DNA from: Aminobacter anthyllidis
GTDB lineage: Bacteria > Pseudomonadota > Alphaproteobacteria > Rhizobiales > Rhizobiaceae
Length of the DNA stretch: 64,000 nucleotides
Assembly (NCBI RefSeq): GCF_018555685.1
Contig: NZ_JAFLWW010000004.1
Coordinates: 310,001 to 374,000, forward strand
Reading direction: 5' to 3'
Numbering within the stretch: position 1 is the stretch's first letter; each line of letters begins with the position of its first letter. Positions 10,000 to 29,792 of the stretch are shown one piece after another. A program made the translations under genes and the position numbers. Below the pieces are notes generated by a model, which made no database searches, was not told the DNA's origin, and was given only the letters and a program-made list of their open reading frames with translations.

Positions 10000-10782
10000 T
10001 CATCCTCCCAGAACTTCGCCGCCGGCGACCGGGATCGCCTGGCCGGTAATTGCGGTTGCCTTTTCCGAGGCGAGCCAGAGCACGGCGTCGGCCACTTCCT
10101 CGGGTGTCACCAGCCGCCCTTGCGGATTGGCGCGGGCGAGCGTGGCGCGTGCGTCTTCGGTCGAACGGCCGGTCTTGCCGGTGATGGTCTCGACGGCATT
10201 GTCGAGCAGCGGCGTGTCGGTGAAGCCGGGGCAAACGGCGTTGACGGTCACATCAGTGCGGGCGAGTTCGAGGGCCAACGCGCGGGTCATGCCGACCACG
10301 CCGTGCTTGGATGCGCAATAGGCGGAGACATAGGCATAGCCGGTCAGGCCGGCGGTGCTGGCGACGTTGACAATGCGGCCCTTGCCGGCGCGCTTGACCG
10401 AGGCCAATGCTGCCTGTGTCACCAGGAACGTACCGGTGAGGTTGATGCCGATCACCCGGTTCCACAATGCCAGGTCGGTCTTGTCGAATGGTGCCGACGG
10501 CGCTTCGCCGGCGCAGTTGACCAGCACCGCGATGTCGCCTGCCTGGGCAATCGCCTTGGCGACGCCTGCCTCGACCGAATGCGCATCGGTGACGTCGAAG
10601 CCAGCAAGCACAAAGGCCTCGCCGCCCGCCTTGGCGATCTCGTCGCGTACGGCCTCCAGAGGCGCGGCACGCCGTCCGCACAGGCTGACGCTGTGGCCGT
10701 TGGCTGCCAGCGCTAGTGCAATGGCCTTGCCGATGCCGCTGCCGGCGCCTGTGACGAGGGCGTGACGCTTGGCCATGCTCAT
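10000..10782 (-). CDS. Short-chain dehydrogenase/reductase (SDR)
   Basis: A 260-residue classical SDR. It has TGAGSGIG for NAD(P) binding at the N terminus, the NCAG strand, a Ser in VASTAG and the YCASKHG active-site Tyr/Lys pair, followed by [10 protein letters not shown]. It would oxidise or reduce a hydroxy/keto group on the alicyclic CoA intermediate. ATG 10782 overlaps the stop of the fused monooxygenase (ATGA, 10779-10782), and its own stop at 10000 lies within the ribosome binding region of the crotonase gene. Such tight coupling shows it is a core component of the pathway. Confidence 0.9.
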
Positions 10783-13106
10783 GACTTGCCCGTGGGTGCC
10801 GTCGCCGCGGCGCGGGCCAGGTTGTTCACATACTGACCGCGAGCCGAATGATACTGCTTCGGCCAGGCTTGCTCGGCATAGCCGATCTTTGCCGCCTCAT
10901 GCATGACGAAGGACGGGTCGGCGAGATGCGGGCGGGCGACAGCGCAGAGGTCGGCGCGGCCGGCGGCGATGATCGAATTGGCATGATCGGCTTCCGAGAT
11001 CGCACCGACAGCGATGGTGGGCACCTGGATCTCGTTGCGGATCTTGTCTGAGAACGGCGTCTGGAACAGGCGGCCGTAGACCGGCTGCTCTTCCTTCACC
11101 ACCTGGCCCGACGAGCAGTCGATCATGTCGGCGCCGGCGTCCTTGAACATCTGGGCGAAGATCGCGGCGTCCTCTGGCGTGTTACCGCCTTCGTACCAAT
11201 CATGAGTCGACAGGCGCACCGAGATCGGCTTGTCCTCAGGCCAGACGGCACGAATGGCGCGGAACACCTCGAGCGGATAGCGGGCGCGGTTATCGTGGCT
11301 GCCGCCATATTCGTCGTCGCGCAAATTGGTCAGCGGCGACAGGAAGGACGACAGCAGGTAGCCGTGAGCGGCGTGCAGCTCGAGGATGTCGAAGCCGAGG
11401 TCGCGGGCGCGCTCCGTGGCGCTGACGAAGTCGGTCAGGACTCGGTCCATATCCTGCCGCGTCATGGCGCGCGGCATTTCAGAATGCTTGAGATAGGGCA
11501 GCGCCGACGCCGAAATCAGCGGCCAGCCGCCTGAGGCCACCGGCTGGTCAATGCCTTCCCAGGCGAGCTTGGTCGCGCCCTTGCGGCCGGCATGGCCGAT
11601 CTGGATGCCGATCTTGGCCTGGGTCTGGTTATGGACGAAATCGACCATGCGCCTGAAGGCCGTGGCCTGCTCGTCATTCCACAGGCCGAGGCAGCCCGGC
11701 GTGATGCGCGCGTCCGGCGACACGCAGGTCATCTCCGGGAAGACAAGCGCTGCCCCGCCCATGGCGCGCGCGCCGATATGGACGAGGTGGAAGTCGTCGG
11801 GCAGACCGTCGGTTGCCGAATACATCGCCATCGGCGACATGACGATGCGGTTCTTCAGCGTCAGCCCGCGAATGGTGAAGGGCGTAAACATCGGCGGCGG
11901 CACCGAGCCGTTGGGTGCAGGGCTCACGCCTGCACGTTCGGCGAACCAGCGTTCGAAGCCCTCGAGCCAGTTCTTGTCGCGCAGGCGCAAATTCTCGTGG
12001 CTGATGCGCTGCGAGCGCGTCAGCATCGAATACATGAACTGCTCAGGTTCGAGCGTGTCGGCGTAGCGCGTGCCGACGACTTCGAACCACTCCATGGCGT
12101 TGCGCGCCGCATTCTGGATGCGTGCAACGTCGACCCGGCGCACGTCCTCGTAGGCCGAAAGCACGGCCGGGATGCTGGCCTTGTCGTGGCCGATGATGTC
12201 GAACTGGCGCGTCAGTTCGATGGCGTCGTCGATGGCGAGCTTGGTGCCCGAACCGATGGCGAAATGGGCGGTATGGGCGCTATCGCCCATCAAAACGACG
12301 TGGCTTTGGCCGTTGAAATGGCTCCACTTGTCGCAGATCAGGCGACCGAAGTTCAGCCATGCCGAGCCGCGCAGATGGCGCGCATTGGTCATCAGCTTGT
12401 GGCCCTCGAGCGTGCCGGCAAACAGCTTCTCGCAAAACGCGATCGACTGGTCCTGGTCCATCTCGTCAATGCCATGCGCCTTGAACACCTCGTCGGTGGT
12501 TTCGACGATGAAGGTCGAGGTGTTGTCGTCGAAACGATAGATGTGCGCCTGGAACCAGCCGTGTTCGGTGCGCTGGAAATCGAAGGTGAAGGCGTCGAAG
12601 CGCTTGTCGGTGCCGAGCCAGATGTAGCGGTTCGGCCGCATCACCATGTCGGGCTTGAAGATGTCGGCGTATTTGTGCCGGATGCGCGAATTGACGCCAT
12701 CCGAAGAGATGATCAGGTCGGCGTCGGGGAAGTCCTGGTCGCCCTGAACGTCGGTCTCGAACACCAGCTCGACGCCAAGCTCGATGCAGCGTTCCTGCAG
12801 GATGTTGAGCATCTTCTTGCGGCCAATGCCGACGAAGCCGTGGCCGGTGGTGCGGATCTTGCGGCCTTTGAACACCAGCTCGATGTCGTCCCAGTGGTTG
12901 AAGGCGACTTCGATGGTTTCGGCCGTCTGCGGGTCCCACTGGCGCATTGACTGCATGGTAGCGTCGGAGAAGACCACACCCCAGCCGAAGGTGTCGAAGG
13001 GACGATTGCGCTCGACGACGGTGACCTGATGCGCGGGGTGCTGCTTCTTCATCAGCAGCGCGAAGTAGAGACCGGCCGGTCCGCCACCGATACAGACAAT
13101 GCGCAT
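10779..13106 (-). CDS. Fused flavin monooxygenase / old-yellow-enzyme-type reductase, 2-aminobenzoyl-CoA monooxygenase/reductase-like
   Basis: A 775-residue fusion. The N-terminal ~400 residues are an FAD aromatic hydroxylase with GGGPAGLY at 7-14 and [23 protein letters not shown]. From about residue 405 an old-yellow-enzyme domain follows, with [19 protein letters not shown] and [16 protein letters not shown]. This architecture is that of 2-aminobenzoyl-CoA monooxygenase/reductase from Azoarcus evansii; databases often label it salicylyl-CoA 5-hydroxylase/oxidoreductase. It would hydroxylate and then reduce the ring of 2-aminobenzoyl-CoA. The start ATG 13106 follows AGGAGGAGG. It is the first gene of the operon, and an 18-bp near-palindrome lies ~90 bp upstream. 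The substrate assignment rests on architecture plus the linked kynurenine and ligase genes. Confidence 0.87.
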
Positions 13107-13192
13107 GCCGTCCTCCTCCTGAAGCCGTTCGGCCAAGTGGACATGCGTGCCCGACCCTGACCATGGAAGGCACCATGGACGCTTTCCAAAAA

Positions 13193-13281: not shown

Positions 13282-13830
13282 CTAACGCGACAGGTAAGTC
13301 GCGGTATCCACGAGTTCGCCATAGCCGAAGGCGATCGCGGCCATGACGGCGTCGTGGACCTGAGCGGCAGCCACGGTCTTGCCGTTGAATTCGAGATCCC
13401 GCGTGGCGCAGGCGTCATGGACGACGGTCGCCTTGTAGCCGAAATCCGCTGCGGCACGGGTGGCGCCTTCGACGCACATGTGGCTCATCGCGCCGACGAT
13501 GACCACTTCCTCGATGCCCTTGGCGTCCAGCGTCGCCTTGAGGTCGGTTTCGCGGAACGAATTGACGTAGTTCTTGGTGATGACCTTCTCGCCATCGGCC
13601 GGGGCGACAGTGGCGTTGATCTCGATGCCGTCGGTCCCGGGTGCGAAGATCGGCGCGTCCGCGCCCTTGGAGACATGACGGACGTGGATGACGGTGTCGC
13701 CCTTGGCGCGTGCCGACTCGATGACGCGGGCGGCGTTTTCAGTTGCCTTCTCGATGCCGACGAGTGGCATGCGGCCGCCGGGAAAATATTCGTTCTGCAT
13801 GTCGATGGCGATAACCGCGCGCTTGCTCAT
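13282..13830 (-). CDS. Isochorismatase-family cysteine hydrolase
   Basis: A 182-residue hydrolase of the isochorismatase/nicotinamidase superfamily. The catalytic triad is visible as Asp in AVIAIDMQNEY, Lys in ITKNYVNSF and Cys in SHMCVEGATRAA, where it is preceded by the usual GAM segment. Members hydrolyse amides or vinyl ethers such as nicotinamide, ureido acids or isochorismate, and the substrate here is unknown. The start ATG 13830 is the first good one. The gene is divergent from the GlxA-type regulator, with ~105 bp between the starts, so that regulator is the likely controller, as is common for this pair. Confidence 0.88.
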   Translation of the reverse strand: MSKRAVIAIDMQNEYFPGGRMPLVGIEKATENAARVIESARAKGDTVIHVRHVSKGADAPIFAPGTDGIEINATVAPADGEKVITKNYVNSFRETDLKATLDAKGIEEVVIVGAMSHMCVEGATRAAADFGYKATVVHDACATRDLEFNGKTVAAAQVHDAVMAAIAFGYGELVDTATYLSR

Positions 13831-13935: not shown

Positions 13936-14910
13936 ATGGCAAATTCCGGCGTCATCGAGATCGGGCTGGTGTTCTACCCCGGCGCACAGATGTCGGCGGT
14001 GCTCGGCATGACCGATCTGTTCGAGCTCGCCAACCGCACCGCCGCACGCAAGAGCCAAGGTGCGCCGGCGAAGCAGCTGCGCGCCAGTCACTGGCGGGCG
14101 GAGCATCCGGGACGCGTGCCTGTACGGGTGTTCGACAGCCATCCGAATGCTTCAGGTGTGCCCGAGGTCTACGTCGTGCCGCCGGCGCTCGGCGATCCGA
14201 TTTCGCGGGAGGCAGTCGCTGCTCTCGCCGGCTGGCTGCGCGAGCGCCACGGTGCCGGCAGCGTGCTGGCATCGGTCTGCGCCGGTGCCTTCGTGCTTGG
14301 CGAAACCGGGTTGCTGGCCGGGCGCTCGGTGACAACGAACTGGGTCTATGACGAGGCGTTCAGGGTACGCTTCCCTGCAGCGAAGCTCGATACCGACAGG
14401 CTGCTCATCGACGATGGCGACATCATCACGGCCGGCAGCCTGATGGCCTGGACCGATCTTGGCCTCAGGCTGGTCGACCGCTTCCTCGGGCCGACCGTGA
14501 TGATCGAGACGGCCCGGATTCTGGCGCTCGATCCGCCCGGGCGCGAACAGCGCTACTACAGCGCCTTCGCGCCGCGGCTCAGCCATGGCGATGCGGCCAT
14601 CCTCAAGGTGCAGCACTGGCTGCAGGCGGGCGAAGGCAGGGAGCTGAACCTCAATGTGCTGGCATCGTTGGCGGGCCTGGAGGAGCGCACCTTCCTGCGC
14701 CGCTTCCAGAAAGCGACTGGCCTGACGACAACCGAGTATGGCCAGCGCCTGCGCGTCGGCAAGGCGCGAGAATTGCTGCAGTTCACCACGCAGTCGGTCG
14801 ACAAGGTGGCGTGGGAGGTAGGCTACGGCGATCCCGGCGCGTTCCGCAAGGTCTTTGCCCGCATCGTCGGCCTGACGCCCAGCGACTATCGCGCCCGATT
14901 TCGCGCGTAG
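13936..14910 (+). CDS. GlxA-family transcriptional regulator (DJ-1/PfpI domain plus AraC-type HTH)
   Basis: A 324-residue regulator. Residues ~8-190 form a DJ-1/PfpI-like domain with the nucleophile-elbow segment [15 protein letters not shown]. The C-terminal ~100 residues are an AraC-type double helix-turn-helix, with [27 protein letters not shown] and [32 protein letters not shown]. The N-terminal fold usually senses a small molecule. It is divergent from the isochorismatase gene and likely controls it. Its end lies 7 bases from the convergent MarR gene. Confidence 0.9.
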
Positions 14911-14917
14911 CGCGCGA

Positions 14918-15442
14918 CTAGGCACCCTTGGCGAGCGACGCGACGATCGAGCGTTTCAGCTTGCCAAGTTCATCGAGCAGGATCCCGCCGTCCTTGGCCG
15001 TCAGCGTGCCAAACAGATCGGCGATCCATTCGGCGTGCGCCGCAGCCATCTTCTCGAACTCGGCGCGACCGAAGGGCGTCAGCGCGATGATCTGGACGCG
15101 GCGGTCGGTGGACGAGGTGGTGCGGCTGATGTGGCCGCTCTCGGCGAGGCGCTCAACCAACACGGTGATGTTACCGGGCGACACCATCATGCGCTTGGAC
15201 ACTTCGCCCAGCACCATGCCGTCGGGCGCGCGTTCGAGCTGCGCCATCAGGTCGAAGCGGGGCAGGGTGGAATCGAACTCTTCGCGCAGGCGCCGGCGCA
15301 CCTCTGTTTCAACCAGCGTCGAACAGGTAAGCAGGCGCAACCACAGGCGCAGTTCGGTGCCGTGGTCGGCGGGTGCTTCCAGCACCTTCGTCTCGCCGTC
15401 CACCCATCCGCCGGCATTCGCCGCTTCCTTGCGCTCATCCAT
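14918..15442 (-). CDS. MarR-family transcriptional regulator
   Basis: A 174-residue winged-helix regulator. The HTH region is LGEVSKRMMVSPGNITVLVERLAESGHISR at about residues 80-110, and the wing is SSTDRRVQIIALTPFGRAEF. MarR-type proteins often repress aromatic-degradation genes and release DNA on binding the aryl-CoA. The gene sits between the monooxygenase operon and the kynureninase block. A CAAGCTTG-centred palindrome related to those upstream of the monooxygenase and formamidase genes lies ~85 bp upstream of its start, which is consistent with autoregulation. It is therefore my best candidate for the regulator of the aminobenzoyl-CoA genes. The link is inferred. Confidence 0.9.
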   Translation of the reverse strand: MDERKEAANAGGWVDGETKVLEAPADHGTELRLWLRLLTCSTLVETEVRRRLREEFDSTLPRFDLMAQLERAPDGMVLGEVSKRMMVSPGNITVLVERLAESGHISRTTSSTDRRVQIIALTPFGRAEFEKMAAAHAEWIADLFGTLTAKDGGILLDELGKLKRSIVASLAKGA

Positions 15443-15540: not shown

Positions 15541-16509
15541 TCAGGCGTCCGGGATGCCACCCGTCAGGACCGTCGAATAGTCTTCGGCGTCGATGTTGCC
15601 GCCCGAAACAACGCAGACGACATTGCCGGTGGCATGCTCACTGGCAAGAGCGGCGGCCAGCGAGGCGGCGCCCGCACCCTCTGCCACCACCTTGGATTTG
15701 CCGAACAACAGCCGCATCGCGGCGGTCACCTGGTCGAGGCTGACTGTGACGGCACCGCCGATCAACTCGCGTGCCACCGGCCAGAGTTGCGGCACCAGCG
15801 ACGGGCCGCCGATGCTTTTGATGAAAGAAGGGCGCGTCTCGATGTCGACGATGCGACCGGCCGCAAGTGCGGCCGTCACTGGCGCCGCGTTCTCGTCCTC
15901 GACGGCAAAGACCTTCGTATCGGGCCGCAGTGCCTTCACAGCGCTGGCGACACCAGTGGTCATGCTGCCGCCGCCAAAAGGCGTGAGCACCACGTCGACA
16001 TCGGGCAGGTCTTCGATGATTTCCATGCCGATCGAGCCGTTGCCTGATAGCACCGCCTGATCGGTGACCGGATTGATCAGCAGTTCTGGAAAATCGGGCC
16101 GGTCAGCGCCGATGATGTACTGCCACCATGTCTCCATGGAGATGAAGCGGACATCCCCGCCGAGGCGGCGCACGCCTGATATCTTGGTCTGCGGGGCACC
16201 GGAATACATGTAGGCCGCCATCGGCACGCCCAACTTGTTAGCGGCCCAGGCCATGCCATAGGCCATGTTGCCGGAGCTTGTGGTGGCGACGCCATTGGCG
16301 AGCGCATCGGCATCACGAGACAGAAGCGCGTTGAGCGCCGGCCTCAGCTTGAAAGCGCCGATCGGCGACAGCGTTTCAAGCTTGAGGAAGATCTGCCGGT
16401 CGGGCAGGCCGAGGTCGAGGCGGACAAGCGGCGTGCGCGGAACATACGGCGCGATCCGGGCGCGGGCAGCGGCGATCTCGTCCAGTGTCGGGCGGTAGGG
16501 AGCGGTCAT
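15541..16509 (-). CDS. PLP-dependent serine/threonine dehydratase-like enzyme
   Basis: A 322-residue fold-type II PLP enzyme resembling catabolic threonine/serine dehydratases without a C-terminal ACT domain. The PLP Lys lies in LSPIGAFKLRPALNALL, the substrate loop is TTSSGNMAYGMAWAAN and the phosphate-binding glycines are in TPFGGGSMTTG. It would deaminate a hydroxy amino acid or racemise it. The start overlaps the stop of the GntR gene (16506-16509), so the two form an operon that diverges from the TrpX-like transporter and kynureninase. Its link to tryptophan metabolism is positional only. The usual Ser-x-Lys motif is replaced by Ala-Phe-Lys next to the Gly, which deserves an alignment. 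Confidence 0.85.
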   Translation of the reverse strand: MTAPYRPTLDEIAAARARIAPYVPRTPLVRLDLGLPDRQIFLKLETLSPIGAFKLRPALNALLSRDADALANGVATTSSGNMAYGMAWAANKLGVPMAAYMYSGAPQTKISGVRRLGGDVRFISMETWWQYIIGADRPDFPELLINPVTDQAVLSGNGSIGMEIIEDLPDVDVVLTPFGGGSMTTGVASAVKALRPDTKVFAVEDENAAPVTAALAAGRIVDIETRPSFIKSIGGPSLVPQLWPVARELIGGAVTVSLDQVTAAMRLLFGKSKVVAEGAGAASLAAALASEHATGNVVCVVSGGNIDAEDYSTVLTGGIPDA

Positions 16510-17285
16510 TCGGCAGCCGATTTCGATCGCAGGCTGCCGGCGCGCGCGGCATGCTTGTTGCCGCTGTAGTCCTCGGTGTGGACATAGACATGCAGCGTGT
16601 AGCCGATGTGGTCGATCATCAGCGCTTTCGCCTTGTCGAGATCGCGGTCGAGCGCGGCCTCCATAAGGGAGGTGTGCGGTCCGATCGACTGTGCTTCGCC
16701 CAGTGCGGCCATCGCTTCTTCGTAGCCTTGCTTCTGGCCTTCGGCCGCTCGAAGCGTTGGCGCCAGACCGAGAAAACGATGGTGGCGGCGCAACTGGTCG
16801 GAGATCGTCGAACGGAAGCGCAGCAGCCAGTTCGACGTCGCGGCGCTCAGGAGCGCCGAATGGAACGCTTCGTGCTTTTCGTCCCAGTCATCGACGGAGG
16901 AGTCGGAAGGATCCTCGACTGCGGTCTTGCAGCGCGACAAGCGATAATGCGCTGTCACGACAGCCTCTTCCCAGTCGCTGCCGCCCTTTTCGATCGATTC
17001 CAGCAGAAGCGGCAGTTCGACCACCATCCTGGCTCTCGCCAGGTCTTCCAGTTCCTGGCGCGAAACGGAGGCCACGGTGAAACCGCGATTGGAGATCGCT
17101 GTCACCAGCCGCTCGGCCTCCAGCCGCGACAGCGCCTCGCGCAGGGGGGTCCAGCCGACGCCATAGGCAGTGCGCAGCGCGCTCAGCTTCAGCGGCGCGC
17201 CTGGCATCAGCCGGGTGGTCAGGATATCGCGCCGCAGCAGCCGGTATGCCGCTTCCGTCTTGGTCGAGTGCTCGTCGTCCTGCAT
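16506..17285 (-). CDS. GntR-family regulator with FCD domain
   Basis: A 259-residue regulator. The N-terminal winged helix spans residues ~12-75 (ILTTRLMPGAPLKLSALRTAYGVGWTPLREALSRLEAERLVTAISNRGF). An all-helical FCD ligand-binding domain follows, with the metal/ligand-type His and Asp residues (DEKHEAFHSALL, HTSLMEAALDRD). The start is ATG 17285. It is divergent from the TrpX-like/kynureninase operon. Two 12-bp copies of ATTATATAT[C/A]AT lie in the shared promoter region (17312-17323 and 17341-17352). It probably represses both its own operon and the transporter/kynureninase genes, perhaps responding to kynurenine or a related compound. Confidence 0.9.
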   Translation of the reverse strand: MQDDEHSTKTEAAYRLLRRDILTTRLMPGAPLKLSALRTAYGVGWTPLREALSRLEAERLVTAISNRGFTVASVSRQELEDLARARMVVELPLLLESIEKGGSDWEEAVVTAHYRLSRCKTAVEDPSDSSVDDWDEKHEAFHSALLSAATSNWLLRFRSTISDQLRRHHRFLGLAPTLRAAEGQKQGYEEAMAALGEAQSIGPHTSLMEAALDRDLDKAKALMIDHIGYTLHVYVHTEDYSGNKHAARAGSLRSKSAAE

Positions 17286-17435: not shown

Positions 17436-18422
17436 ATGAGAAATTTGAAGTCCGGTCTGATGTCGGGTCTGGTTCTGGCTGGCGCTCTCGCCGTCAGCCT
17501 CGGTGCCGCCGTCGCTGATCCGATCAAGATCGGCATTGCCAATTTCGGTGAACATCCGCAGCTCAACGCAGCCGTCGCCGGCTTCAAGAAGGCGCTGGCT
17601 GACAATGGCTATGTCGACGGCAAGGACGTCGTCTACACTGAGAGCCACACCAATTTTGATGCGTCGCTGGTTCCCCAGATGATCGCCAAGCTGCAGGCTG
17701 AACAGCCCAAGCTGATCTACACCGTCACCACCCCTGTGTCGCAGATCGCCAAGAAGGCGCTCGCCGGCTCAGGCATTTCCATCGTCTTCTCCGCAGTGAC
17801 CGACCCGGTCGCCGCCAAGCTGGTTCCGTCGTGGGAAGCCGGCGACGAAGGCATGACCGGCGCCACCGATCTCCAGGACGTCAAGGCGGTGATGGAATTC
17901 ACCAAGAAGCTTTTGCCAAACGCCAAGCGTTTCGGCGTGCCTTACAATCCAGGTGAAGCCAACGACGTCGCCCTGGTCGAGAAGATCAAGGAAGCGGCAC
18001 CTGCCGCAGGCTTCGAAGTCGTCGAAGTCGGTATCGACAATGTCAACGACATCCAGCAGCGCATCGCTTCGCTGGCTGGCAAGGTCGACGTGATCTACGG
18101 CCCGACTTCGAACCTGATCCAGCCGGCGATCCCGGCCGTCTCGGCGGCAGCGCGCCAGGCCGGCATTCCGGTCGTCAATGCCGACGACAATGCCGTGCGT
18201 GACGGCGTCGTGCCGGCAAGCTTCGCGGTGAACTACGAGCAGGTCGGCATCAACGCTGGCAAGATCGCCGCCGAAATCCTGAAGGGCAAGGACCCCAAGA
18301 CCATCGCGCCTTCGCGCCCGGCCTATGAGGACCACGCCGCGATGATCTCGAAGAAGGCGATGGCGGCATTCGGCATCGAAATCCCGGCTTCGCTGGCTGA
18401 TTGCGGCTGCATCGTCGAGTAA
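17436..18422 (+). CDS. ABC transporter substrate-binding protein, TrpX-like
   Basis: A 328-residue secreted binding protein of the ABC_sub_bind (TrpX) family. A signal peptide covers about residues 1-26 (positively charged start, GLVLAGALAVSLGAAVA). The mature protein has the two-lobed pattern KIGIANFGEHPQLNAAVAGFKKAL ... TDPVAAKLV ... GVPYNPGEAN ... IYGPTSNLIQ. In Streptococcus the homologous system imports tryptophan. Here the system shares an operon with kynureninase, so tryptophan, kynurenine or a similar compound is the likely ligand. The start follows GGGAGGA. A strong hairpin just after the stop would make this gene more highly expressed than the downstream membrane parts. Confidence 0.88.
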   Translation: MRNLKSGLMSGLVLAGALAVSLGAAVADPIKIGIANFGEHPQLNAAVAGFKKALADNGYVDGKDVVYTESHTNFDASLVPQMIAKLQAEQPKLIYTVTTPVSQIAKKALAGSGISIVFSAVTDPVAAKLVPSWEAGDEGMTGATDLQDVKAVMEFTKKLLPNAKRFGVPYNPGEANDVALVEKIKEAAPAAGFEVVEVGIDNVNDIQQRIASLAGKVDVIYGPTSNLIQPAIPAVSAAARQAGIPVVNADDNAVRDGVVPASFAVNYEQVGINAGKIAAEILKGKDPKTIAPSRPAYEDHAAMISKKAMAAFGIEIPASLADCGCIVE

Positions 18423-18442
18423 TCTTCAGCTTCGTCAAAACA

Positions 18443-18473
18443 GGTAACGGCGTCTTGGACGCCGTTACCTTTT
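18443..18473 (+). terminator. Partial terminator (attenuator) between binding protein and ATPase genes
   Basis: GGTAACGGCGTC (18443-18454) pairs perfectly with GACGCCGTTACC (18458-18469) around a 3-base loop, followed by TTTT. It lies inside the operon between the binding-protein stop and the ATPase start, a usual way to keep binding protein in excess. Confidence 0.75.
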
Positions 18474-18486
18474 CCGGGAGGGACGG

Positions 18487-21507: not shown

Positions 21508-21508
<1 letters not shown>
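21482..21508. terminator. Bidirectional rho-independent terminator between kynU and livF
   Basis: AAAAGGGCGGCAA pairs with TTGCCGCCCTTTT over a nearly loopless perfect palindrome, with T-rich flanks on both strands. It lies between the convergent kynU and livF genes and reaches the livF stop codon. Confidence 0.85.
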
Positions 21509-22190
<682 letters not shown>

Positions 22191-22194
<4 letters not shown>

Positions 22195-22940
22195 GCGGCT
22201 TCTCCGAGATAGGCCCGGCGGACTTCGGGGTCGTTGCGGATCTGGTCGACAGTGCCGGTGGCAATGACGCGGCCATAGACCAGCACCGAGATGCGGTCGG
22301 CGAGCGCGAAGACGGCATCCATGTCGTGCTCGACCAGCAGGATCGGCGCTTCATGGCGCAGGCCGTCGAGGAACTTGGTCAGCGCCTTCGAGCCCTCGGG
22401 ACCCATGCCGGCCATCGGCTCGTCGAACAGGAACGCCTTTGAGCCGAGCGCCAGCGCAATCGCGATTTCGAGCTGGCGGCGTTCGCCATGCGACAGCTCG
22501 GCGGCGGGCAGGTGGGCGCGTCCGGCGAGGCCGACGCGCTCCAGCATCGCCATTGCCGGTTCGGTCAGGCTCTTGTCGTTCATCACGGGACGGAAGAAGC
22601 GGAAGCTCGTGCCCTGGCGTGCCTGTACCGCAAGCATGACGTTGCGCAGGGCGGAAAACTCCTGCGCCAGCGACGAGATCTGGAAGCTGCGGCCGAGGCC
22701 GAGACGGGCGCGTGCGGCCATGTCGAGCCCGGCAATGTCCTGGCCGAGGAAGCGGATGGTGCCGCTGTCGGGCCGGAACGAGCCGGAGATCTGATGGATC
22801 AGTGTGCTTTTGCCGGCGCCATTGGGGCCGATCAGCGCGTGGACCTCGCCAGGTCTCAGATCGAGGCTTACGCCGTCGGTGGCCTTCAGTGCGCCGAAGG
22901 TCTTTTTGAGATCGCGGATTTCGAGAACTGGCTCAGCCAT
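22191..22940 (-). CDS. livG: Branched-chain-type (HAAT) ABC transporter ATPase, LivG-like
   Basis: A 249-residue ATPase. It has Walker A GPNGAGKST, the longer LivG insert with LGRSFQISSLAQEFSALRNVMLAVQAR, signature LSHGERRQLEIAIAL (a SHGE variant common in LivG) and Walker B FLFDEPMAGMGPEGS. I start it at ATG 22940 (MAEPVLEI), since a longer frame upstream overlaps the permease more than needed. It is one of five contiguous Liv-type genes. Confidence 0.92.
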
Positions 22941-23937
22941 GACGCGCCTTTCCGGCCAGCAGGCCCAGCAGCCCACCGCGCGCGAACAGCACCACGCCGA
23001 GCAGGATCAGGCCAAGGAAGAACTGCCAGCGCTCGGTTATGCCGCCAAGCGCATATTCGATCAGCACGTAGAGCATGGCGCCAGCGACGGGGCCGAACAG
23101 CCGTCCCTTGCCGCCAAGGATGATGAGCACGATCAGCTCGCCTGACATATGCCAGGACAGCATCGATGGGCTGACGAACTTGTTGAGGTCGGCGAACAGC
23201 GCGCCGGCGAGCCCGGTGACCATGGCCGAGACGGCGAATGCAACAAGCCTGACGTTGAACGGCGCGATGCCGACTGCGGCTAGGCGCGTCGCGTTCTGCC
23301 GCGCTGCCTGCAGGGCCGCGCCGAAGCGCGAGCCGCGCAGCAGCCAGAACAGCCCGAGTGCTGCCATCAGCACCACATAGCAGATCAGGAAATAGGACAG
23401 CGGCTGGGCAGTATTCACGCCGGGGAATTCGTTGCGAACATAGATCGAAAGCCCGTCCTCGCCGCCATAGGCCGGCCACGACACGGCGAAGTAGTAGATC
23501 ATCTGCGCGAAGGCGAGCGTGATCATGATGAAGTAGACGCCCGTTGTGCGCAGGCTGATGGCGCCGATCGGCAATGCGATCAGGCCGCAGACCACGACCG
23601 CGACAAGCCAGATGATCGGCATCGATGCCGTGCCCGGGATGCCGGCGAAGAGTGGCACACCGTCGAAGGCATGGGTGGCGAGGATGCCGGCGGCATAGCC
23701 GCCGAGGCCGAAGAAGGCGGCGTGTCCAAACGACACCAGCCCGCCGAGCCCTAGCGCGATGTTGAGGCCGACAGCAGCGAGCGCCAGGATGGCGATGCGC
23801 GTCGCGAGCGTAATGTAGAACGGCTCGCCCATGGCGGACGCCCCAAGCGGGATCGCCAGCAAGAGAAGCGCCAGCAGAGTGTTGATGACGGTTTCGCGGG
23901 TCATGAGGGGTGCATTGGTCATGGCGGCGGCACTCAC
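22933..23937 (-). CDS. livM: Branched-chain-type ABC transporter permease, LivM-like
   Basis: A 334-residue permease with about nine hydrophobic segments and the LivM hallmark ALGLGGLVSFGHAAFFGLGGYAAGILA. The cytoplasmic LRGSRFGAALQAARQNATRLAAVGI loop contacts the ATPase. The frame opens with GTG at 23937 (MSAAAMTNAP), overlapping the stop of livH (GTGA). An ATG five codons later is an alternative start. It forms the heterodimeric channel with the LivH-like protein. Confidence 0.9.
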   Translation of the reverse strand: MSAAAMTNAPLMTRETVINTLLALLLLAIPLGASAMGEPFYITLATRIAILALAAVGLNIALGLGGLVSFGHAAFFGLGGYAAGILATHAFDGVPLFAGIPGTASMPIIWLVAVVVCGLIALPIGAISLRTTGVYFIMITLAFAQMIYYFAVSWPAYGGEDGLSIYVRNEFPGVNTAQPLSYFLICYVVLMAALGLFWLLRGSRFGAALQAARQNATRLAAVGIAPFNVRLVAFAVSAMVTGLAGALFADLNKFVSPSMLSWHMSGELIVLIILGGKGRLFGPVAGAMLYVLIEYALGGITERWQFFLGLILLGVVLFARGGLLGLLAGKARHG

Positions 23938-24854
23938 GACTGCGTCGCAAACAGGCCGCTCGGCCTGAAAGCGAGGATCAGGGCCATGACGATGTAGATC
24001 AGCATGGAGGCAAGCGCGGCACCGATCGGGCCGGCCTGGGCGGCGGGGATCATCAGGGCCAGGACCTTGGGCAGCAGGAAACGCCCCATCGTGTCGACGA
24101 CGCCGACGAGGACGGCGCCGAACAGCGCGCCCTTGATCGAGCCGATGCCGCCGATGACGATGACGACGAAGGCAAGGATGAGCGCCGGTTCGCCCATGCC
24201 GACTTGAACCGACTGCAGTGCGCCGACAAGCGCGCCGGCAAGGCCGGCCAGCGCGGCGCCAAGTGCGAAGACGACGGTGTAGAGGGTACGGATATCGACG
24301 CCGAGTGCGGCGATCATCTCGCGGTCGGACTCGCCGGCACGGATACGCATGCCGAGCCGCGTGCGCGAGATCAGCACATACAGGCCCAGTGCTACCACGA
24401 CACCGACGCCGATGATGGCGAGACGGTAGAGCTGGTACTGGCCACCGCCTGGCAGGGGCACTGCTCCCTGCAGCAGCGGCGGGATGTCGAGATAAAGCGG
24501 AAACGAGCCGAACATCCAGCGCGTGCCTTCGGAGAAGATCAGGATCAGCGCGAATGTCGCCAGCACCTGGTCGAGATGGTCGCGGTCATAGAGGCGGCGT
24601 ATGACGGTCACTTCGATGATCGCGCCGGCCGCCGCCGCCGCAACGAGACTCGCCGCCAGTCCGATCCAGAACGAGCCGGTGGCAGCCGCAACCGCCGCGC
24701 AGGCGAAGGCGCCGACCATGTAGAGCGAGCCATGGGCGAGGTTGATCAGGCCCATGACGCCGAAGATCAGCGTCAGGCCGGCGGCCATGAGGAACAGCAT
24801 CACCCCGAGCTGCAGCCCGTTGAGAAGTTGCTCGAGGAGCAGTGCGATGGACAA
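23934..24854 (-). CDS. livH: Branched-chain-type ABC transporter permease, LivH-like
   Basis: A 306-residue permease. The N terminus LLEQLLNGLQLGVMLFLMAAGLTLIFGVMGLINLAHGSLYM is the LivH signature, and SRTRLGMRIRAGESDREMIAALG is the coupling loop. The only suitable start codon is TTG at 24854; the next in-frame ATG would remove the first membrane helix. No strong ribosome binding site is visible before the TTG, so translation may be weak. A 165-base gap with RIME-like palindromes separates it from the binding-protein gene. Confidence 0.87.
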   Translation of the reverse strand: MSIALLLEQLLNGLQLGVMLFLMAAGLTLIFGVMGLINLAHGSLYMVGAFACAAVAAATGSFWIGLAASLVAAAAAGAIIEVTVIRRLYDRDHLDQVLATFALILIFSEGTRWMFGSFPLYLDIPPLLQGAVPLPGGGQYQLYRLAIIGVGVVVALGLYVLISRTRLGMRIRAGESDREMIAALGVDIRTLYTVVFALGAALAGLAGALVGALQSVQVGMGEPALILAFVVIVIGGIGSIKGALFGAVLVGVVDTMGRFLLPKVLALMIPAAQAGPIGAALASMLIYIVMALILAFRPSGLFATQS

Positions 24855-24898
24855 GGGGACGCTTTCGCTGGCTGGGGTTTAGGATGCGACGAAGACGC

Positions 24899-25018
24899 CT
24901 CCCTCTCCCCGTTCACGGGGAGAGGGTAAGGGTGAGGGGTAGCATCGGACTTGCAGGCGTATGCACCGCCCCTCATCCGCCTGCCGGCACCTTCTCCCCG
25001 CATGCGGGGAGAAGGAAG
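24899..25018. repeat. RIME-like palindromic intergenic element
   Basis: Two clear hairpins, CCCTCTCCCC/GGGGAGAGGG around 24901-24927 and CCTTCTCCCC/GGGGAGAAGG around 24990-25015, are joined by sequence containing GTGAGGGG and CCCCTCATCCGCCTG. These words are those of the mosaic palindromic repeats (RIME type) scattered between rhizobial genes. Here the element lies within an operon, between the binding-protein and permease genes, and could stabilise the upstream mRNA. Confidence 0.7.
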
Positions 25019-25019
25019 C

Positions 25020-26156
25020 TCACATCTTGCACTGTTCGGCGTAGGCGTCCTTGTGGTGCTCGAAGGCGGTGGCAACGATCTTGTTGGTCAGCACGTCGCC
25101 TTCCTTGATCACCTCACGCACGTAGATGTTCTGCACCGGGTGGTTGTTGGTGTTGAAGGTGAACTCGCCGCGCACCGACTTGAAATCGGCGGCCTTGAGT
25201 GCTGCGCGGAAGGCATCCTTGTCCTTGACGCTGGCCTTGCCGAGCGCCGACAGGATCAGGTTTGCCGTATCCCAGCTCTGGGCGGCATAGACCGAGGGCA
25301 GGCGCTTGTATTCGGCCTTGAAGGCCTCGACGAACTGCTTGTTGGCCTCGTTGTCGAGGTCCTTCGACCAGCTGGCCGAGTTCTTGACACCGAGTGCCGC
25401 GTCGCCAACGGCCGGCAGGATGTCCTGGTCGAAGGAGAAGCCTGGGCCCATGACCGGAATGTTCACGCCCGACTGGGCGTACTGCTTCATGAACGAGATG
25501 CCCATGCCGCCGGGAAGGAAGAAGAAGACCGAGTCGGCGCCGGAATCGCGGATCTGGGCGATCTCGGCGGCGTAGTCGGTCTGGCCGACCTGGGTGTAGA
25601 CTTCACCCGCCAACTCACCCTTGTAGTAGCGCTTGAAGCCGGTCAGCGAATCCTTGCCGGCCGGATAGTTGGGCGCAAGGATGAAGGTCTTCTTGTAGTC
25701 CTTGTTGGCGTACTGGCCCATCGCCTCGTGGAAGTTGTCGTTCTGATAGGCGACGTTGAAATAGTTCTTGTTGCACTTGGCGCCAGCGAGTGCCGAAGGG
25801 CCGGCATTGGGCGATAGGTAGATGACGTCCTGTGCCACAGCGTTCGGCACCACGGCCATCGCCAGGTTCGACCAGATGATGCCGGTCAACAGGTCGACCT
25901 TGTCGCTCTGGATCATCTTTTCAGCGAGCTGAACGGCGATCTCGGGCTTCTGGGCATCGTCCTCGATGACGAGTTCAACATCCTTGTTGCCGGACTGCTT
26001 CATCGCCAGCGCAAAGGCATCGCGCATATCGACGCCGAGGCCCGCGCCGCCTCCCGAAAGCGTGGTGATGACGCCGATCTTCACCGGCTCGGCATATGCC
26101 AGGCCAGATGCCGCAAGCGACAGGCCAAAAATTCCGGCCGCAATGATTTTCTTCAT
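25020..26156 (-). CDS. livK: Branched-chain-type ABC transporter substrate-binding protein, LivK-like
   Basis: A 378-residue periplasmic binding protein. The signal peptide is MKKIIAAGIFGLSLAASGLAYA, cut before EPVKIGVITTLSG. Type I periplasmic-binding fold motifs follow: GLGVDMRDAFALAM, LTGIIWSNLAMAVVP and FFFLPGGMGISFMKQY. ATG 26156 follows GGGAGGAG. The ligand is not obvious from sequence; position after tryptophan dioxygenase suggests tryptophan, kynurenine or anthranilate. Two Cys near the C terminus and middle (AKCNKNYF, AEQCKM) may form a disulfide, as in related aromatic-acid-binding proteins. Confidence 0.9.
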   Translation of the reverse strand: MKKIIAAGIFGLSLAASGLAYAEPVKIGVITTLSGGGAGLGVDMRDAFALAMKQSGNKDVELVIEDDAQKPEIAVQLAEKMIQSDKVDLLTGIIWSNLAMAVVPNAVAQDVIYLSPNAGPSALAGAKCNKNYFNVAYQNDNFHEAMGQYANKDYKKTFILAPNYPAGKDSLTGFKRYYKGELAGEVYTQVGQTDYAAEIAQIRDSGADSVFFFLPGGMGISFMKQYAQSGVNIPVMGPGFSFDQDILPAVGDAALGVKNSASWSKDLDNEANKQFVEAFKAEYKRLPSVYAAQSWDTANLILSALGKASVKDKDAFRAALKAADFKSVRGEFTFNTNNHPVQNIYVREVIKEGDVLTNKIVATAFEHHKDAYAEQCKM

Positions 26157-26198: not shown

Positions 26199-27035
26199 CT
26201 AGAGCCGGGTGCGAACTTTCCAGAGTTCCGGAAACAGTTCAACCTCCAGCATCTTCTTCAGATACGAAGCGCCAGACGTGCCGCCGGTGCCGCGTTTCAT
26301 GCCGATGATGCGTTCGACCGTGGTGACGTGGTTGAAGCGCCATCGGCGGAAGTAATCCTCGAAGTCGACCAGCTTCTCGGCCAGCTCATAAAACATCCAG
26401 TAGCGTTGCGGATCGCGATAGATCGTCTGCCAGGCGACGAGCACCTCTTCGCTTTCGCTGCGGGTCTCGCGCCAGTCGGTGCGCTTGCCATCCGCGCCGA
26501 TGTCGAAGCCGTTGCGACCAAGCAGCAGGATCGCCTCATCGTATAGCGAGGGCTGGGCAAGCACCGCTTCCAGCTTCTCGGCCAGTTCGGGCTGGTGCGC
26601 GTGTGGGCGAAGCATAGCCAGATTGCGGTTGCCGGCCATGAACTCGATGGCGCGATATTGCCAGGACTGGAATCCCGAGGACTGGCCGAGCGAGTCGCGA
26701 AACTCGGTGTATTCGCTTGGCGTCATCGTCCTGAGCACATCCCAGGCGCTGTTGAGCTGCTCGAAAATGCGCGACACGCGCGACAGCATCTTGAACGACG
26801 GCTCGAGCTTGTCGGCACGAATCGAGCGGATCGCCGAGCCGATCTCGTGCAAAGCAAGCTTCATCCACAGCTCCGACGTCTGATGCTGGATGATGAACAG
26901 CATCTCGTCGTGCGCGGTCGAAAGCGGCGCCTGGGCGTCGAGGATCTTTTCGAGATGCAAATAGTCGCTGTAGGACATCCGGTCCTTGAACGACATCTGC
27001 GCGCCTTCGACGGAGGGATCGTACGGCTTGCTCAA
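26199..27035 (-). CDS. kynA: Tryptophan 2,3-dioxygenase
   Basis: A 278-residue haem enzyme that opens the indole ring of L-tryptophan to N-formylkynurenine. It has [16 protein letters not shown], the substrate-site [14 protein letters not shown] with His51, [13 protein letters not shown] and, near residue 236, [23 protein letters not shown] with the haem-ligand His and the GTGGTSG loop. The best start is TTG 27035, which overlaps the ligase stop (TTGA) and sits 8 bases after GGAG. The first ATG is 13 codons further in. Coupling to the aryl-CoA ligase upstream directly links tryptophan ring opening with anthranilate activation. Confidence 0.95.
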
Positions 27036-28657
27036 TTCATTTTCTCCGCACGCAACCGGAAGCGCTGGATCTTGCCGGTCTGGGTCTTGGGCAGGGCGTC
27101 GATGAACTTCACCGATCGTGGATACTTGTAGGGCGCGATCGTCGCCTTGACGTGATCCTGCAGGCGTTTGACGGTCGCAGCATCGGCGGCCACGCCAGCG
27201 ACGAGCACGACATAGGCTTCGACGATCTGGCCACGCTCGCCGTCTTCTGCCCCGATGACAGCGCATTCGGCGACTTCGGGATGCGAGAACAGAGCTGCTT
27301 CAACCTCCGGGCCGGCAATGTTGTAGCCGGCGCTGACGATCATGTCGTCGGAACGGGCGGCGAAATGGAAGAAGCCATCCGCGTCCTGCAAGAAGGCATC
27401 GCCGGTGACATTCCAGCCATCCCGCACATATTCGAGCTGGCGGTCATCGGCCATGTAGCGGCAGCCTGTGGGTCCGCGCACGGCGAGCTTGCCGACCGTG
27501 CCGCGCGGCACCTCGTTCATCTCGCTGTCGACGACACGCGCCTCGTAGCCGCCGACGGGCTTGCCGGTGGAGGCGGGCTTCATGTCCTCGAAGCGGTTTG
27601 AGATGAATATATGCAGCATCTCGGTGGCGCCGATGCCGTCGAGGATCGGCTTGCCGGTCTTGGCCAGCCATTCCTCGAACACCGGTCCGGGCAAGGTTTC
27701 GCCAGCCGAAACCGCGACGCGCAGCGACGACAGATCGGCACCTTCGTCCATCGCCTTCAGCATCGCGCGATAGGCGGTTGGGGCGGTGAACGAGATCGTC
27801 GCCTTATAGGTCTCGATGATGTGGATCATGTTGGGCGGCGTCGCCTGTTCGAGCAGGGTCGCGGCCGCACCAAAGCGAAGTGGGAAGATGGCCAGGCCGC
27901 CGAGGCCGAAGGTGAAGGCGAGCGGTGGCGAGCCGACGAAGACGTCGTCGGAGGTGACCGAAAGCACCTCCTTGGCATAGGCGTCGGCGATGATCAGCAG
28001 GTCGCGATGGAAGTGCATCGTCGCCTTCGGCACACCCGTGGTGCCCGAGGTGAAGCCGAGCAGTGCAACGTCGTCGCGGCCGGTCTTCACCGCTTCGAAG
28101 ATGACGGACTTGTCGAGTGCTACACGGTCCAGTTCGGCGTCGTGATTGGCGGTGCCGTCGAAGCCGATCACCGTCTTGAGGAAGGGACTGTCCTTGGCGC
28201 AGGCGACCATCTCGTCCATCAGGCGCGTGTCGCAAAGCGCGATGGTGATCTCCGCTTTGTCGACGATCTTGGTGAGTTCGCCGGCGCGCAGCATCGGCAT
28301 CGTGTTCACGACAACTGCTCCGGCCTTGGTGGCGGCCAGCCAGCAGGCGACCATTGCGGGGTTGTTGGCCGAGCGGATCAGCACCCGGTTGCCTGGCTTG
28401 ACGCCGTAGTTCTCGACCAGCGCATGCGCCAGCCGGTTGGTCCAGTCGGACAGCTCCTTGTAGGTACGGCGGCGGCCATTGCCGATCAGGGCAGTGTGGT
28501 CGCCGAGGCCCTTTTCGACAAGCCGGTCGGTCAGTTCGACGCCGGCATTGAGGTGTTCGGGATAGTCGAAGCCGTCGAGCAGGAAGTCCGGCCACTGCTC
28601 GGCGGGCGGCAGGTTGTCGCGCGTGAAAGTGTCGATATGCGCTGACGGTCCAAGCAT
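27032..28657 (-). CDS. Benzoate-CoA-ligase-family enzyme, probable 2-aminobenzoate (anthranilate)-CoA ligase
   Basis: A 541-residue adenylate-forming ligase. The AMP-binding motif is [20 protein letters not shown], followed by [23 protein letters not shown] and [14 protein letters not shown]. The C-terminal lid has [41 protein letters not shown], and the catalytic Lys lies in [14 protein letters not shown]. It belongs to the benzoate-CoA ligase branch, and the length equals the Azoarcus 2-aminobenzoate-CoA ligases as I recall them. Linkage to kynA, kynU and the fused monooxygenase supports anthranilate as the substrate; benzoate or salicylate cannot be excluded. It is the first gene of the minus-strand kynA-liv unit. 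Confidence 0.88.
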
Positions 28658-28964
28658 TCTGCGGCTGTCCCCTACCTGCTGATCGCCCCGGCAAGTGGCC
28701 GTGCGTGCGTTTGAATGCGTTACTCAGGGGAGGCTTCGCGCCGAAAATAGGGGGTCACGTCCGACAAGCGGCGCACCCCTTGCGCGATCGAAACTGCGAC
28801 CGGCGTTTGGCACAGCGAGACCTCCCACGTTCTCGGTTGATGATTGAGAATTGCACCGGACCAAAATTATTTCAAGCATAAAGTTTTTGGTGCTGGCCCA
28901 TTGACGCGATCCGGTGGGCTGGCCATTGCTTTGGTGCCGAATGTCATTGCCTGGGAGGGGCCGA
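28658..28964. promoter_or_regulatory. Divergent promoter region between the CoA ligase and formamidase genes
   Basis: This 307-base gap holds no gene. It contains an AT-rich island around 28855-28892 with the candidate MarR operator at 28869-28884, and a GGGAGGGG ribosome binding site (28953-28960) for the formamidase GTG start. Both flanking genes belong to the proposed tryptophan pathway, so the region is probably a two-way control point. Confidence 0.6.
28869..28884. promoter_or_regulatory. Candidate MarR operator upstream of the formamidase gene
   Basis: ATTTCAAGCATAAAGT matches ACTTCAAGCTTAAAGT at 13194-13209 in 14 of 16 positions. It ends 80 bp before the formamidase start, close to the 87-bp distance seen at the monooxygenase operon, and lies ~210 bp upstream of the ligase start. 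Confidence 0.62.
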
Positions 28965-29792
28965 GTGTTCGAACGTCACATCACCGATTGGGACAACGCC
29001 TACACAAACGGCGCAAACATCGCCGGTGGCGACCGTTGGCCTGCTGCCTGGGTCGAGCCGGCGCAGTCGTTTCGCCAAGCCCTGTCGGCCGCTGGTAGGG
29101 CGCGGCTAGACATCGCCTATGGCGACAAGCCGCGTAACCGGTTCGACCTTTTCCTGCCTGAAGGCGCGCCCAAAGGCCTGGTCGTGTTTGTGCATGGCGG
29201 CTACTGGATGGCACTGGACAAGAGTTTTTGGTCGCATCTCGCCAAGGGTTCCGTCGACAGCGGCTACGCGGTGGCGATGCCGTCCTACACCTTGTGTCCG
29301 GAAGTCAGGATTGGCGACATCGTGCGTGAGGTCGGCGCGGCGGTTGGCAAAGCAGCCGGACTTGTCGAAGGCCCGATCATGCTGACCGGCCATTCCGCCG
29401 GCGGACATCTGGTCTCCCGCATGGTCGCAGCCAGTTCGCCGCTTGCGCCTGAAGTACAGTCCCGTATCCGCCATGTCGTCTCGCTCTCGGGCGTCCATGA
29501 CCTCAGGTCCTTGATGAACACCGGCATGAACAAGACGCTGCACATCGACGAAGCCGAAGCGCTGGCCGAGAGCCCCGCTCTGCTGCGGCCGGTCGCCGGC
29601 GCGCGCATCACCTGTTGGGTCGGCGGCGGGGAACGGGCGGAGTTCCTGCGCCAGAACGATTTGCTCGCCAATATCTGGACCGGCCTTGGTGCCGCCACGG
29701 TGACGGTGGTTGAGCCCGATAGGCATCATTTCAGTGTCATCGACGGACTTGTCGACAAGGACCATGCGCTGACAAGGACCTTGCTCGGCTGA
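28965..29792 (+). CDS. Alpha/beta hydrolase, probable kynurenine formamidase (arylformamidase, AFMID-like)
   Basis: A 275-residue alpha/beta hydrolase. HGGYW at residues 77-81 is the oxyanion motif shared with eukaryotic kynurenine formamidases. The nucleophile Ser144 lies in LTGHSAGGHL, and the C-terminal Asp/His are likely in VVEPDRHHFSVIDGL. No signal peptide is present. It would hydrolyse N-formylkynurenine to kynurenine and formate, the one step between the dioxygenase and kynureninase genes seen here. The classical metal-dependent KynB is absent from the window. The GTG start at 28965 is chosen because GGGAGGGG lies 4 bases upstream. Other esterase or amidase activities remain possible. 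Confidence 0.82.
   Translation: MFERHITDWDNAYTNGANIAGGDRWPAAWVEPAQSFRQALSAAGRARLDIAYGDKPRNRFDLFLPEGAPKGLVVFVHGGYWMALDKSFWSHLAKGSVDSGYAVAMPSYTLCPEVRIGDIVREVGAAVGKAAGLVEGPIMLTGHSAGGHLVSRMVAASSPLAPEVQSRIRHVVSLSGVHDLRSLMNTGMNKTLHIDEAEALAESPALLRPVAGARITCWVGGGERAEFLRQNDLLANIWTGLGAATVTVVEPDRHHFSVIDGLVDKDHALTRTLLG

Follow-up and report, generated by a model that had tools for sequence, protein, structure and literature searches.

The present study concerns a window of 64,000 nucleotides from Aminobacter anthyllidis (contig NZ_JAFLWW010000004.1, positions 310,001 to 374,000), the whole stretch of DNA that was analyzed, and in it a gene cluster at positions 3958-29792 that combines tryptophan 2,3-dioxygenase (TDO) and kynureninase (KynU) with a coenzyme A (CoA) ligase and a fused monooxygenase/old-yellow-enzyme. 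The genome carrying the window is 6.7 Mb in size and Aminobacter-like, and its fused enzyme is 97% identical to that of A. ciceronei. We propose, with a probability of about 0.87 and on the strength of sequence comparison, that the locus encodes aerobic tryptophan degradation by a CoA-ester route.

Family-model scans resolved the cluster into four gene blocks, with the annotated plasmid pSR1 (L084) of Aminobacter sp. SR38 as guide to the gene starts. Block a, on the minus strand, holds the fused enzyme, a short-chain dehydrogenase/reductase (SDR), a crotonase, an acyl-CoA dehydrogenase, a thioesterase, a Rid protein, a hydratase/dehydrogenase fusion and a thiolase, with neighbors overlapping or at most 10 bases apart. 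Block b has MarR, GlxA-type and GntR regulators, an isochorismatase-type hydrolase and a pyridoxal-phosphate (PLP) enzyme. On the plus strand, block c has a TrpX-like ATP-binding cassette (ABC) importer followed by kynureninase. Block d, on the minus strand, consists of the ligase, TDO and a five-gene branched-chain-type importer, with an alpha/beta-hydrolase gene divergent from it. The features are as follows.

3958..5160, minus: PcaF-type 3-oxoacyl-CoA thiolase, last gene of the lower operon (TIGR02430, 667 bits; cut-off 597)
5157..7136, minus: enoyl-CoA hydratase/3-hydroxyacyl-CoA dehydrogenase fusion (PF00378, PF02737, PF00725)
7143..7538, minus: Rid-family protein with PAM motif (PF01042; Met at the RidA catalytic Arg position)
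7531..7947, minus: hotdog (4HBT-type) acyl-CoA thioesterase (PF13279, 55.7 bits)
7958..9151, minus: acyl-CoA dehydrogenase (PF00441, PF02770, PF02771)
9155..10003, minus: crotonase-fold enzyme (PRK08258 family), putative ring-opening hydrolase (NF006107, 463 bits against 330; start as in SR38)
10000..10782, minus: SDR (PF00106)
10779..13106, minus: 2-aminobenzoyl-CoA monooxygenase/reductase-type fusion (NF006101, 1351.7 bits; PF01494 and PF00724)
13282..13830, minus: isochorismatase-type cysteine hydrolase (PF00857)
13936..14910, plus: GlxA/AraC-type regulator, accessory (PF12833, PF01965; GlxA in SR38)
14918..15442, minus: MarR-family regulator (PF12802)
15541..16509, minus: PLP enzyme of threonine/serine dehydratase fold (PF00291)
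16506..17285, minus: GntR-FCD protein, predicted regulator of the kyn module (PF00392, PF07729)
17436..18422, plus: TrpX-like substrate-binding protein (PF04392; NF041285, 184 bits; cut-off 390)
18487..19266, plus: ABC importer ATPase (PF00005)
19272..20195, plus: ABC importer permease (PF02653)
20214..21461, plus: kynureninase KynU (TIGR01814, above cut-off)
21508..24854, minus: branched-chain-type ABC importer, two ATPases and two permeases (annotated L084 orthologues, 93-98% identical)
25020..26156, minus: substrate-binding protein of the branched-chain-type importer (PF13458)
26199..27035, minus: TDO, TTG start (TIGR03036, above cut-off; start from sequence)
27032..28657, minus: anthranilate-CoA ligase-type enzyme (54% identical to the verified pAL1 ligase; best solved structure 4wv3)
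28965..29792, plus: alpha/beta-hydrolase, putative N-formylkynurenine formamidase (HGGYW and GHSAG aligned with 4e11)

Every gene named in the initial annotation is present. Its seven coupled genes of beta-oxidation type are indeed seven tightly packed genes, but the thioesterase and Rid protein among them are not beta-oxidation enzymes. The overlap of the ligase and TDO genes is real and amounts to four bases (TTGA), with the TTG start of TDO at 27035 overlapping the ligase stop. A longer TDO reading frame of 355 residues was rejected, as its first ~77 residues are out-of-frame ligase; likewise rejected was a minus-strand frame at 14152-14925, antisense to the GlxA-type gene. Plasmid pSR1 carries the same genes, 84-99% identical, but has an inserted IS1182 that separates kynU from the branched-chain-type importer. 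Since the same genes are found again in SR38, the cluster is not a chance assembly.

Both enzymes of the upper pathway belong to their curated families, TDO with 425.5 bits on TIGR03036 (cut-off 390.7) and KynU with 366.9 bits on TIGR01814 (cut-off 246.4). The fused enzyme scores 1351.7 bits on NF006101 (cut-off 1078), and its domain order, PF01494 at residues 13-156 and PF00724 at 416-745, is that of a fusion of flavin adenine dinucleotide (FAD) monooxygenase and old yellow enzyme. The ligase, an AMP-binding protein, and its counterpart on Arthrobacter plasmid pAL1 show 54% identity across 537 residues; for the fused enzymes of the two loci the full-length value is 48%. Expression and assay identified the pAL1 ligase as an anthranilate-CoA ligase (PMC3534580). 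Together with the co-occurrence described below, these data support the CoA-ester route.

We surveyed 180 genomes of the family; the counts ignore relatedness and contig breaks, and those for TDO, fused enzyme and hydrolase are among the matches listed, the weakest matches lying outside. The fused enzyme was found in 108 genomes, TDO in 88, the hydrolase (at least 49% identical) in 113 and KynU above its cut-off in 99. For TDO, matches confined to the query start (to about residue 100, out-of-frame ligase) or below 42% identity were left out, which lowered the count from 99/180 to 88/180. Those below 42% were G066, G175, the second match of G100 and partial matches of G009, G084, G102, G155 and G174, while that of G163 (42%, five stops inside) was kept. 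Matches to the old-yellow-enzyme or monooxygenase half alone were likewise excluded for the fused enzyme (169/180 to 108/180; the one in G089 ends at a contig end), as were hydrolases below 49% identity (150 to 113) and KynU below cut-off (106 to 99). The fused enzyme is present in 84 of the 88 TDO genomes (Fisher p about 1e-23, kinship ignored), and in 48 of the 84 genomes having both, the two genes lie at most 30 kb apart. This limit is arbitrary; in G064 and G143 the two genes stand on one contig ~30 and ~35 kb apart and were scored apart. In 30/180 genomes, all three of TDO, KynU and hydrolase are present no more than 30 kb from the fused gene. Co-occurrence with kynA and kynU in relatives, by which the proposal could be checked, thus speaks for it. 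Fused-enzyme identities to the window fall into bands of 75-100% (37 genomes), 52-57% (63) and 45-49% (12), with four genomes in two bands; at wider range, NF006101 was above cut-off in 50/289 genomes of the class and 39/299 of the phylum. These family counts and the plasmid loci of Marinovum and Rhodococcus described below make the arrangement a recurrent one. The completeness of the single locus had been called notable; this was overstated, because the same core set is found together in other genomes of the family as well as in a roseobacter and a Rhodococcus.

In the proposed pathway, an ABC system would import tryptophan or kynurenine, and the dioxygenase would open the pyrrole ring to yield N-formylkynurenine. 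The alpha/beta-hydrolase, not KynB, would take off the formyl group, and kynureninase would release alanine and anthranilate. The ligase would then make 2-aminobenzoyl-CoA, which the fused flavoenzyme would hydroxylate at C5 and reduce in the ring to 2-amino-5-oxocyclohex-1-ene-1-carbonyl-CoA. The later steps, like the substrates, transport and regulation in this organism, we infer: the Rid protein would strip ammonia from the enamine, the SDR would reduce the ring ketone and the crotonase would open the ring hydrolytically between C1 and C2. The acyl-CoA dehydrogenase, the hydratase/dehydrogenase fusion and the thiolase would shorten the pimeloyl-type CoA ester, and the thioesterase may free the remainder or rescue CoA. 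As far as the dearomatized CoA ester, the course from tryptophan through formylkynurenine, kynurenine, anthranilate and anthraniloyl-CoA given in the initial annotation is the best reading of the gene identities and of the similarity to the pAL1 pair.

Several observations weigh against this pathway or parts of it. The two ABC importers are present as described earlier (TrpX-like, three genes, 17436-20195; branched-chain-type, five genes, 21508-26156), but tryptophan or kynurenine is only a putative cargo, and the TrpX-like protein, with 184 bits on NF041285, stays far below the cut-off of 390. TDO is absent from 24/108 fused-enzyme genomes and from 14/99 KynU genomes, so that the modules are separable. 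The hydrolase also occurs at most 20 kb from the fused gene in three genomes that have neither TDO nor KynU. On TIGR02262, the benzoate-CoA ligase family, the window ligase reaches 374.6 bits, just below the cut-off of 375.25. Solved structures discriminate poorly, as even for the verified pAL1 ligase the scores are 245 bits with an anthranilate ligase and 242 with a benzoate ligase. Furthermore, a 3-hydroxyanthranilate 3,4-dioxygenase is encoded elsewhere in the genome (G000:C1:115267; TIGR03037, 273.8 bits; cut-off 145.95). For the Rid step, the authors of PMC4433059 regard Arg-less subfamilies as most likely not imine hydrolases.

The hydrolase at 28965 (NF058665, 370.6 bits; cut-off 320) is probably the N-formylkynurenine formamidase, an assignment made mainly by gene context. 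KynB was rejected for this role, as TIGR03035 was above cut-off in 0/180 family genomes, in a search without a positive control (0/14 control genomes), and the best match in the own genome (E 1.6e-4) lies below cut-off. The hydrolase has the oxyanion motif HGGxW and the nucleophile motif GxSxG of the animal-type enzyme: its HGGYW and GHSAG align with the animal kynurenine formamidase 4e11 (58 bits), and HGGxW is a kynurenine formamidase (KFase) motif. HGGxW occurs in 27/27 homologues, GHSAG also in 23/27, and both in all 22 homologues at least 38% identical. However, HGGxW is not specific to formamidases, as the pAL1 hydrolase has it too; the closest structure, 2pbl (260 bits), is named only a putative esterase. 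Two stand-alone modules, L099 and L107, consist of hydrolase, TrpX-like importer, GntR regulator, KynU and TDO, the GntR gene adjoining kynU/TDO. No anthranilate-CoA genes lie in the 20-kb stretches of L099 and L107, and their genomes (G063, G149) have the fused enzyme on another contig. These modules tie the hydrolase, the importer type and the GntR regulator to KynA/KynU.

Alternatively, the hydrolase could cleave N-acyl or ester derivatives of anthranilate while another enzyme hydrolyzes formylkynurenine, which we regard as possible but doubtful. In the three genomes without TDO and KynU, it lies at most 3 kb (G035, G170) or 14 kb (G137) from the fused gene; altogether, among 18 fused loci in genomes lacking both, it is within 5 kb in 2 and within 30 kb in 3. 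Its pAL1 homologue (32% identical), which we take to be an N-acetylanthranilate amidase, sits in the quinaldine-to-anthranilate region. The survey comprises 90 TDO loci, as two genomes carry a second one, and the hydrolase is at most 5 kb away in 25 of these; 11 of the 25 have no fused gene within 30 kb. Of the 41 TDO loci with no fused gene inside 30 kb, 11 have the hydrolase within 5 kb, and so do 11 of the 63 fused loci with no TDO inside 30 kb, so that it is associated with TDO only a little more strongly than with the fused gene. Against this stand the modules L099 and L107, the motifs common with the animal enzyme, and KynB, which is above cut-off in none of the 180 genomes although 88 have TDO (again with no positive control). 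The formamidase-like hydrolase of the initial annotation is present, whereas its formamidase role depends mainly on context, and some relatives carry it without kynA or kynU.

A specialized enamine-CoA deaminase is the simplest reading of the Rid protein. Tentatively, and at somewhat less than even odds, we propose a dedicated enzyme with Met for Arg that would convert 2-amino-5-oxocyclohex-1-ene-1-carbonyl-CoA to 2,5-dioxocyclohexane-1-carbonyl-CoA; this reading is supported by the enamine nature of the fused-enzyme product. The deamination may instead be spontaneous. Of 89 Rid sequences, that of the window and the best match of each locus compared, 88 have Met and one has Ile where RidA has its catalytic Arg. 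Aligned with Arg-bearing relatives, the cluster Rid lacks the conserved catalytic Arg of the archetypal RidA imine deaminase, a residue that RidA activity requires (PMC4433059). The loss is not unusual as such, since 6 of the 13 other alignable Rid genes of the genome are without Arg (7 have it; two fragments of one gene left out), one of them (L122) also with Met. This Rid lineage is kept in such loci from Rhizobiales to Arthrobacter and Rhodococcus, and the PAM motif is common to the Rid proteins of the Arthrobacter, Rhodococcus and Marinovum loci. Rid-family 2-aminomuconate deaminases act in other aromatic pathways (PMC6449761). For anthranilate-grown Arthrobacter, PMC3534580 gives a CoA ester of C7H8O4, tentatively cyclohexanedione-carboxyl-CoA, which fits deamination at the ring stage.

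Another question is what feeds the lower operon. It might be an anthranilate pathway supplied mainly by quinoline- or indole-type compounds or plant anthranilate, with the kyn genes as a loosely attached supplier; we consider this unlikely, although several observations favor it. In a comparison of 80 fused-enzyme loci from 592 confirmed relatives (seven of the 80 end early at contig ends, one of them with kynU), 18 have an orthologous kynU no farther than 10 kb from the fused gene, and in 62 none was found at that distance. The 24 fused-enzyme genomes without TDO point the same way, as does L105, in a genome without TDO and KynU, where a branched-chain-type importer accompanies the ligase and fused gene. 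On the other hand, the TDO and ligase genes of the window overlap by four bases, and nearly all TDO genomes (84/88) have the fused enzyme. In this organism, a tryptophan feed and other anthranilate feeds are compatible.

Judged from these comparisons and from trees, the locus is mosaic, composed of modules that were inherited separately. In loci L091, L096 and L097, identity to the window is 84-86% for the ligase, 73-78% for TDO and 72-86% for the branched-chain-type importer, yet no more than 52-54% for the fused enzyme. The KynU tree has two lineages (split 95/94), that of the window and another with L091, L096, further loci of the 52-57% group, stand-alone modules and the Mesorhizobium/Rhizobiaceae loci L021, L080 and L024. 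The fused enzymes of L021 and L024, however, group with the window (SH-aLRT 92-93, N-terminal part). This conflict between the two trees implies at least two joinings, or a replacement. As a separate observation, a second stretch resembling kynureninase (L090, G000:C26:579639-580241) appears to be a remnant; it matches just the latter half of the model (161 bits) and shares 58% identity with the window KynU.

The initial annotation held that tryptophan is degraded by this route instead of via catechol or quinolinate. Such exclusivity cannot be asserted, because the genome also has the 3-hydroxyanthranilate dioxygenase gene; the genome searches did not extend to kynurenine 3-monooxygenase. For the catechol branch, the best match to the anthranilate 1,2-dioxygenase large subunit (AntA) in the genome was 127.5 bits against a cut-off of 671.9, in a search without a positive control, as 0/14 control genomes were over it. 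The dioxygenase belongs to a separate ring-cleavage locus (L089, G000:C1:104000-123000) with an MHPCO-like monooxygenase, an aldehyde dehydrogenase, DHDPS-type, metallo-beta-lactamase-type and alpha/beta-hydrolase genes and its own HAAT importer. A flow of kynurenine through 3-hydroxyanthranilate to this locus, for which the 273.8 bits on TIGR03037 (over 145.95) speak, is improbable. The L089 FAD monooxygenase is nearest 2-methyl-3-hydroxypyridine-5-carboxylate oxygenase (264 bits, against at most 64 for kynurenine 3-monooxygenases), and the locus stands on another contig with its own importer.

The substrate of the ligase and fused enzyme is read more firmly from identities than from quick trees. 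The contrast locus L108, with a monooxygenase, a benzoate-CoA-ligase-type enzyme, a thioesterase and gentisate-type genes, fits a salicylyl-CoA/gentisate route by its gene content. The L108 monooxygenase lacks an old-yellow-enzyme part and matches the N-terminal half of the fused enzyme only, at 35% identity, and the L108 ligase is 34% identical to that of the window. Thus, both window proteins are nearer to the anthranilate pair of pAL1 (54% and 48%) than to the presumed salicylyl-CoA 5-hydroxylase and the ligase of L108, and a firm clustering with salicylate or benzoate enzymes, which would have spoken against the proposal, did not turn up. On solved structures, the window ligase scores 299 bits with the anthranilate-CoA ligase 4wv3, 261 with the benzoate-CoA ligase 2v7b and only 147 with 5oe3, another anthranilate-CoA ligase. 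Quick trees, weak for having single long-branched outgroup rows and for covering only the N-terminal part of the fused enzyme, group both proteins with anthranilate-locus relatives. Placement by tree beside characterized Azoarcus proteins had been envisaged; the placement among anthranilate loci was obtained, but with the Arthrobacter pAL1 proteins as reference in place of Azoarcus. Specificity for salicylate or benzoate, suggested by the NF006101 name and the 374.6 bits on the benzoate-CoA ligase model, is very improbable and was rejected, because the L108 pair is more distant than the pair beside the verified anthranilate-CoA ligase, the trees place both proteins with anthranilate loci and none of the scanned cluster genes is of a gentisate family. 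The NCBIfam name of NF006101, bifunctional salicylyl-CoA 5-hydroxylase/oxidoreductase, misdirects the annotation of anthranilate loci.

Among the loci compared, the isochorismatase-type hydrolase gene occurs only in L003, L006 and L084 and is not conserved with the cluster, while the MarR gene is recurrent, often beside the fused gene in relatives. The loci L003-L017 (Aminobacter, Rhizobium, Ensifer/Sinorhizobium, Shinella) all have a window-type kyn module, and 13 of these 15 retain the PLP gene (15541-16509). On the plus strand, genes for a class III CoA-transferase and an HpcH/HpaI-type lyase (1628-3669) converge on the thiolase; the pair was rejected as part of the pathway, as it is not beside the thiolase in SR38. 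Just past the cluster, a 344-residue FtsZ-family gene (33473-34507, minus strand; PF00091, PF12327) is possibly an accessory copy. A Rhizobiales-type cluster was also seen in an assembly labeled Bacillus subtilis SK6B4 (L054, JAHREI010000003.1), with its ligase pairing with Pseudochrobactrum (SH-aLRT 99); that assembly is probably mislabeled or contaminated.

The upper and CoA-activation steps are known chemistry, and a literature search of limited coverage found only partial descriptions, not the combined locus. The locus is real, coherent and recurrent, and is a good annotation rather than a discovery. Its conserved gene set offers a candidate for each missing step, namely a Rid-type deaminase, a ring-opening crotonase and a non-KynB formamidase. 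The Rid protein and the alpha/beta-hydrolase are two testable leads. If the reading is true, the Rid protein would fill the deamination gap in the 2-aminobenzoyl-CoA route, and together with the hydrolase replacing KynB would complete a tryptophan route that GapMind omitted for lack of knowledge.

Azoarcus evansii reportedly has 2-aminobenzoate clusters (said to have been described by Schuhle et al. in 2001) with the ligase, the fused monooxygenase/reductase and beta-oxidation-type enzymes. They are also said to include a MarR regulator, an ABC binding protein and a Rid-type "translation inhibitor", and to serve anthranilate only. Compared with this reported gene content, the window adds TDO, KynU, the TrpX-like importer and the hydrolase. 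Phaeobacter inhibens DSM 17395 is likewise reported (Druppel et al., 2014) to degrade tryptophan via kynurenine and 2-aminobenzoate, the latter as in A. evansii. A compact version occurs in another roseobacter, on plasmid pMaD4 of Marinovum algicola (L085), where one locus of ~14 kb has an esterase, TDO, KynU, a dehydrogenase fusion, the fused enzyme, an SDR, a regulator, a crotonase, an acyl-CoA dehydrogenase, a ligase, a thioesterase, Rid and a thiolase. Plasmid pAL1 of Arthrobacter sp. Rue61a (L083; PMC3534580) resembles the window in its anthranilate-CoA ligase (54%), fused enzyme (48%) and PAM-motif Rid; unlike the window, it is fed by quinaldine, has PaaX-type regulators and shows no annotated kyn genes in the 40 kb covered. 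A stretch of 10.4 kb on a Rhodococcus sp. NJ-530 plasmid (L109) holds Rid, TDO (46%), fused enzyme (47%) and ligase (54%), together with a class-V PLP enzyme that matches KynU (41%). In contrast to the window, its gene set is actinobacterial, with a different importer and regulators. Finally, kynABU of Paraburkholderia xenovorans represents the KynA/KynB/KynU route (PMC11676955). The tryptophan-to-anthranilate chemistry is common to both; in the window, however, the KynB family stays under its cut-off, and anthranilate would proceed to a CoA ester.

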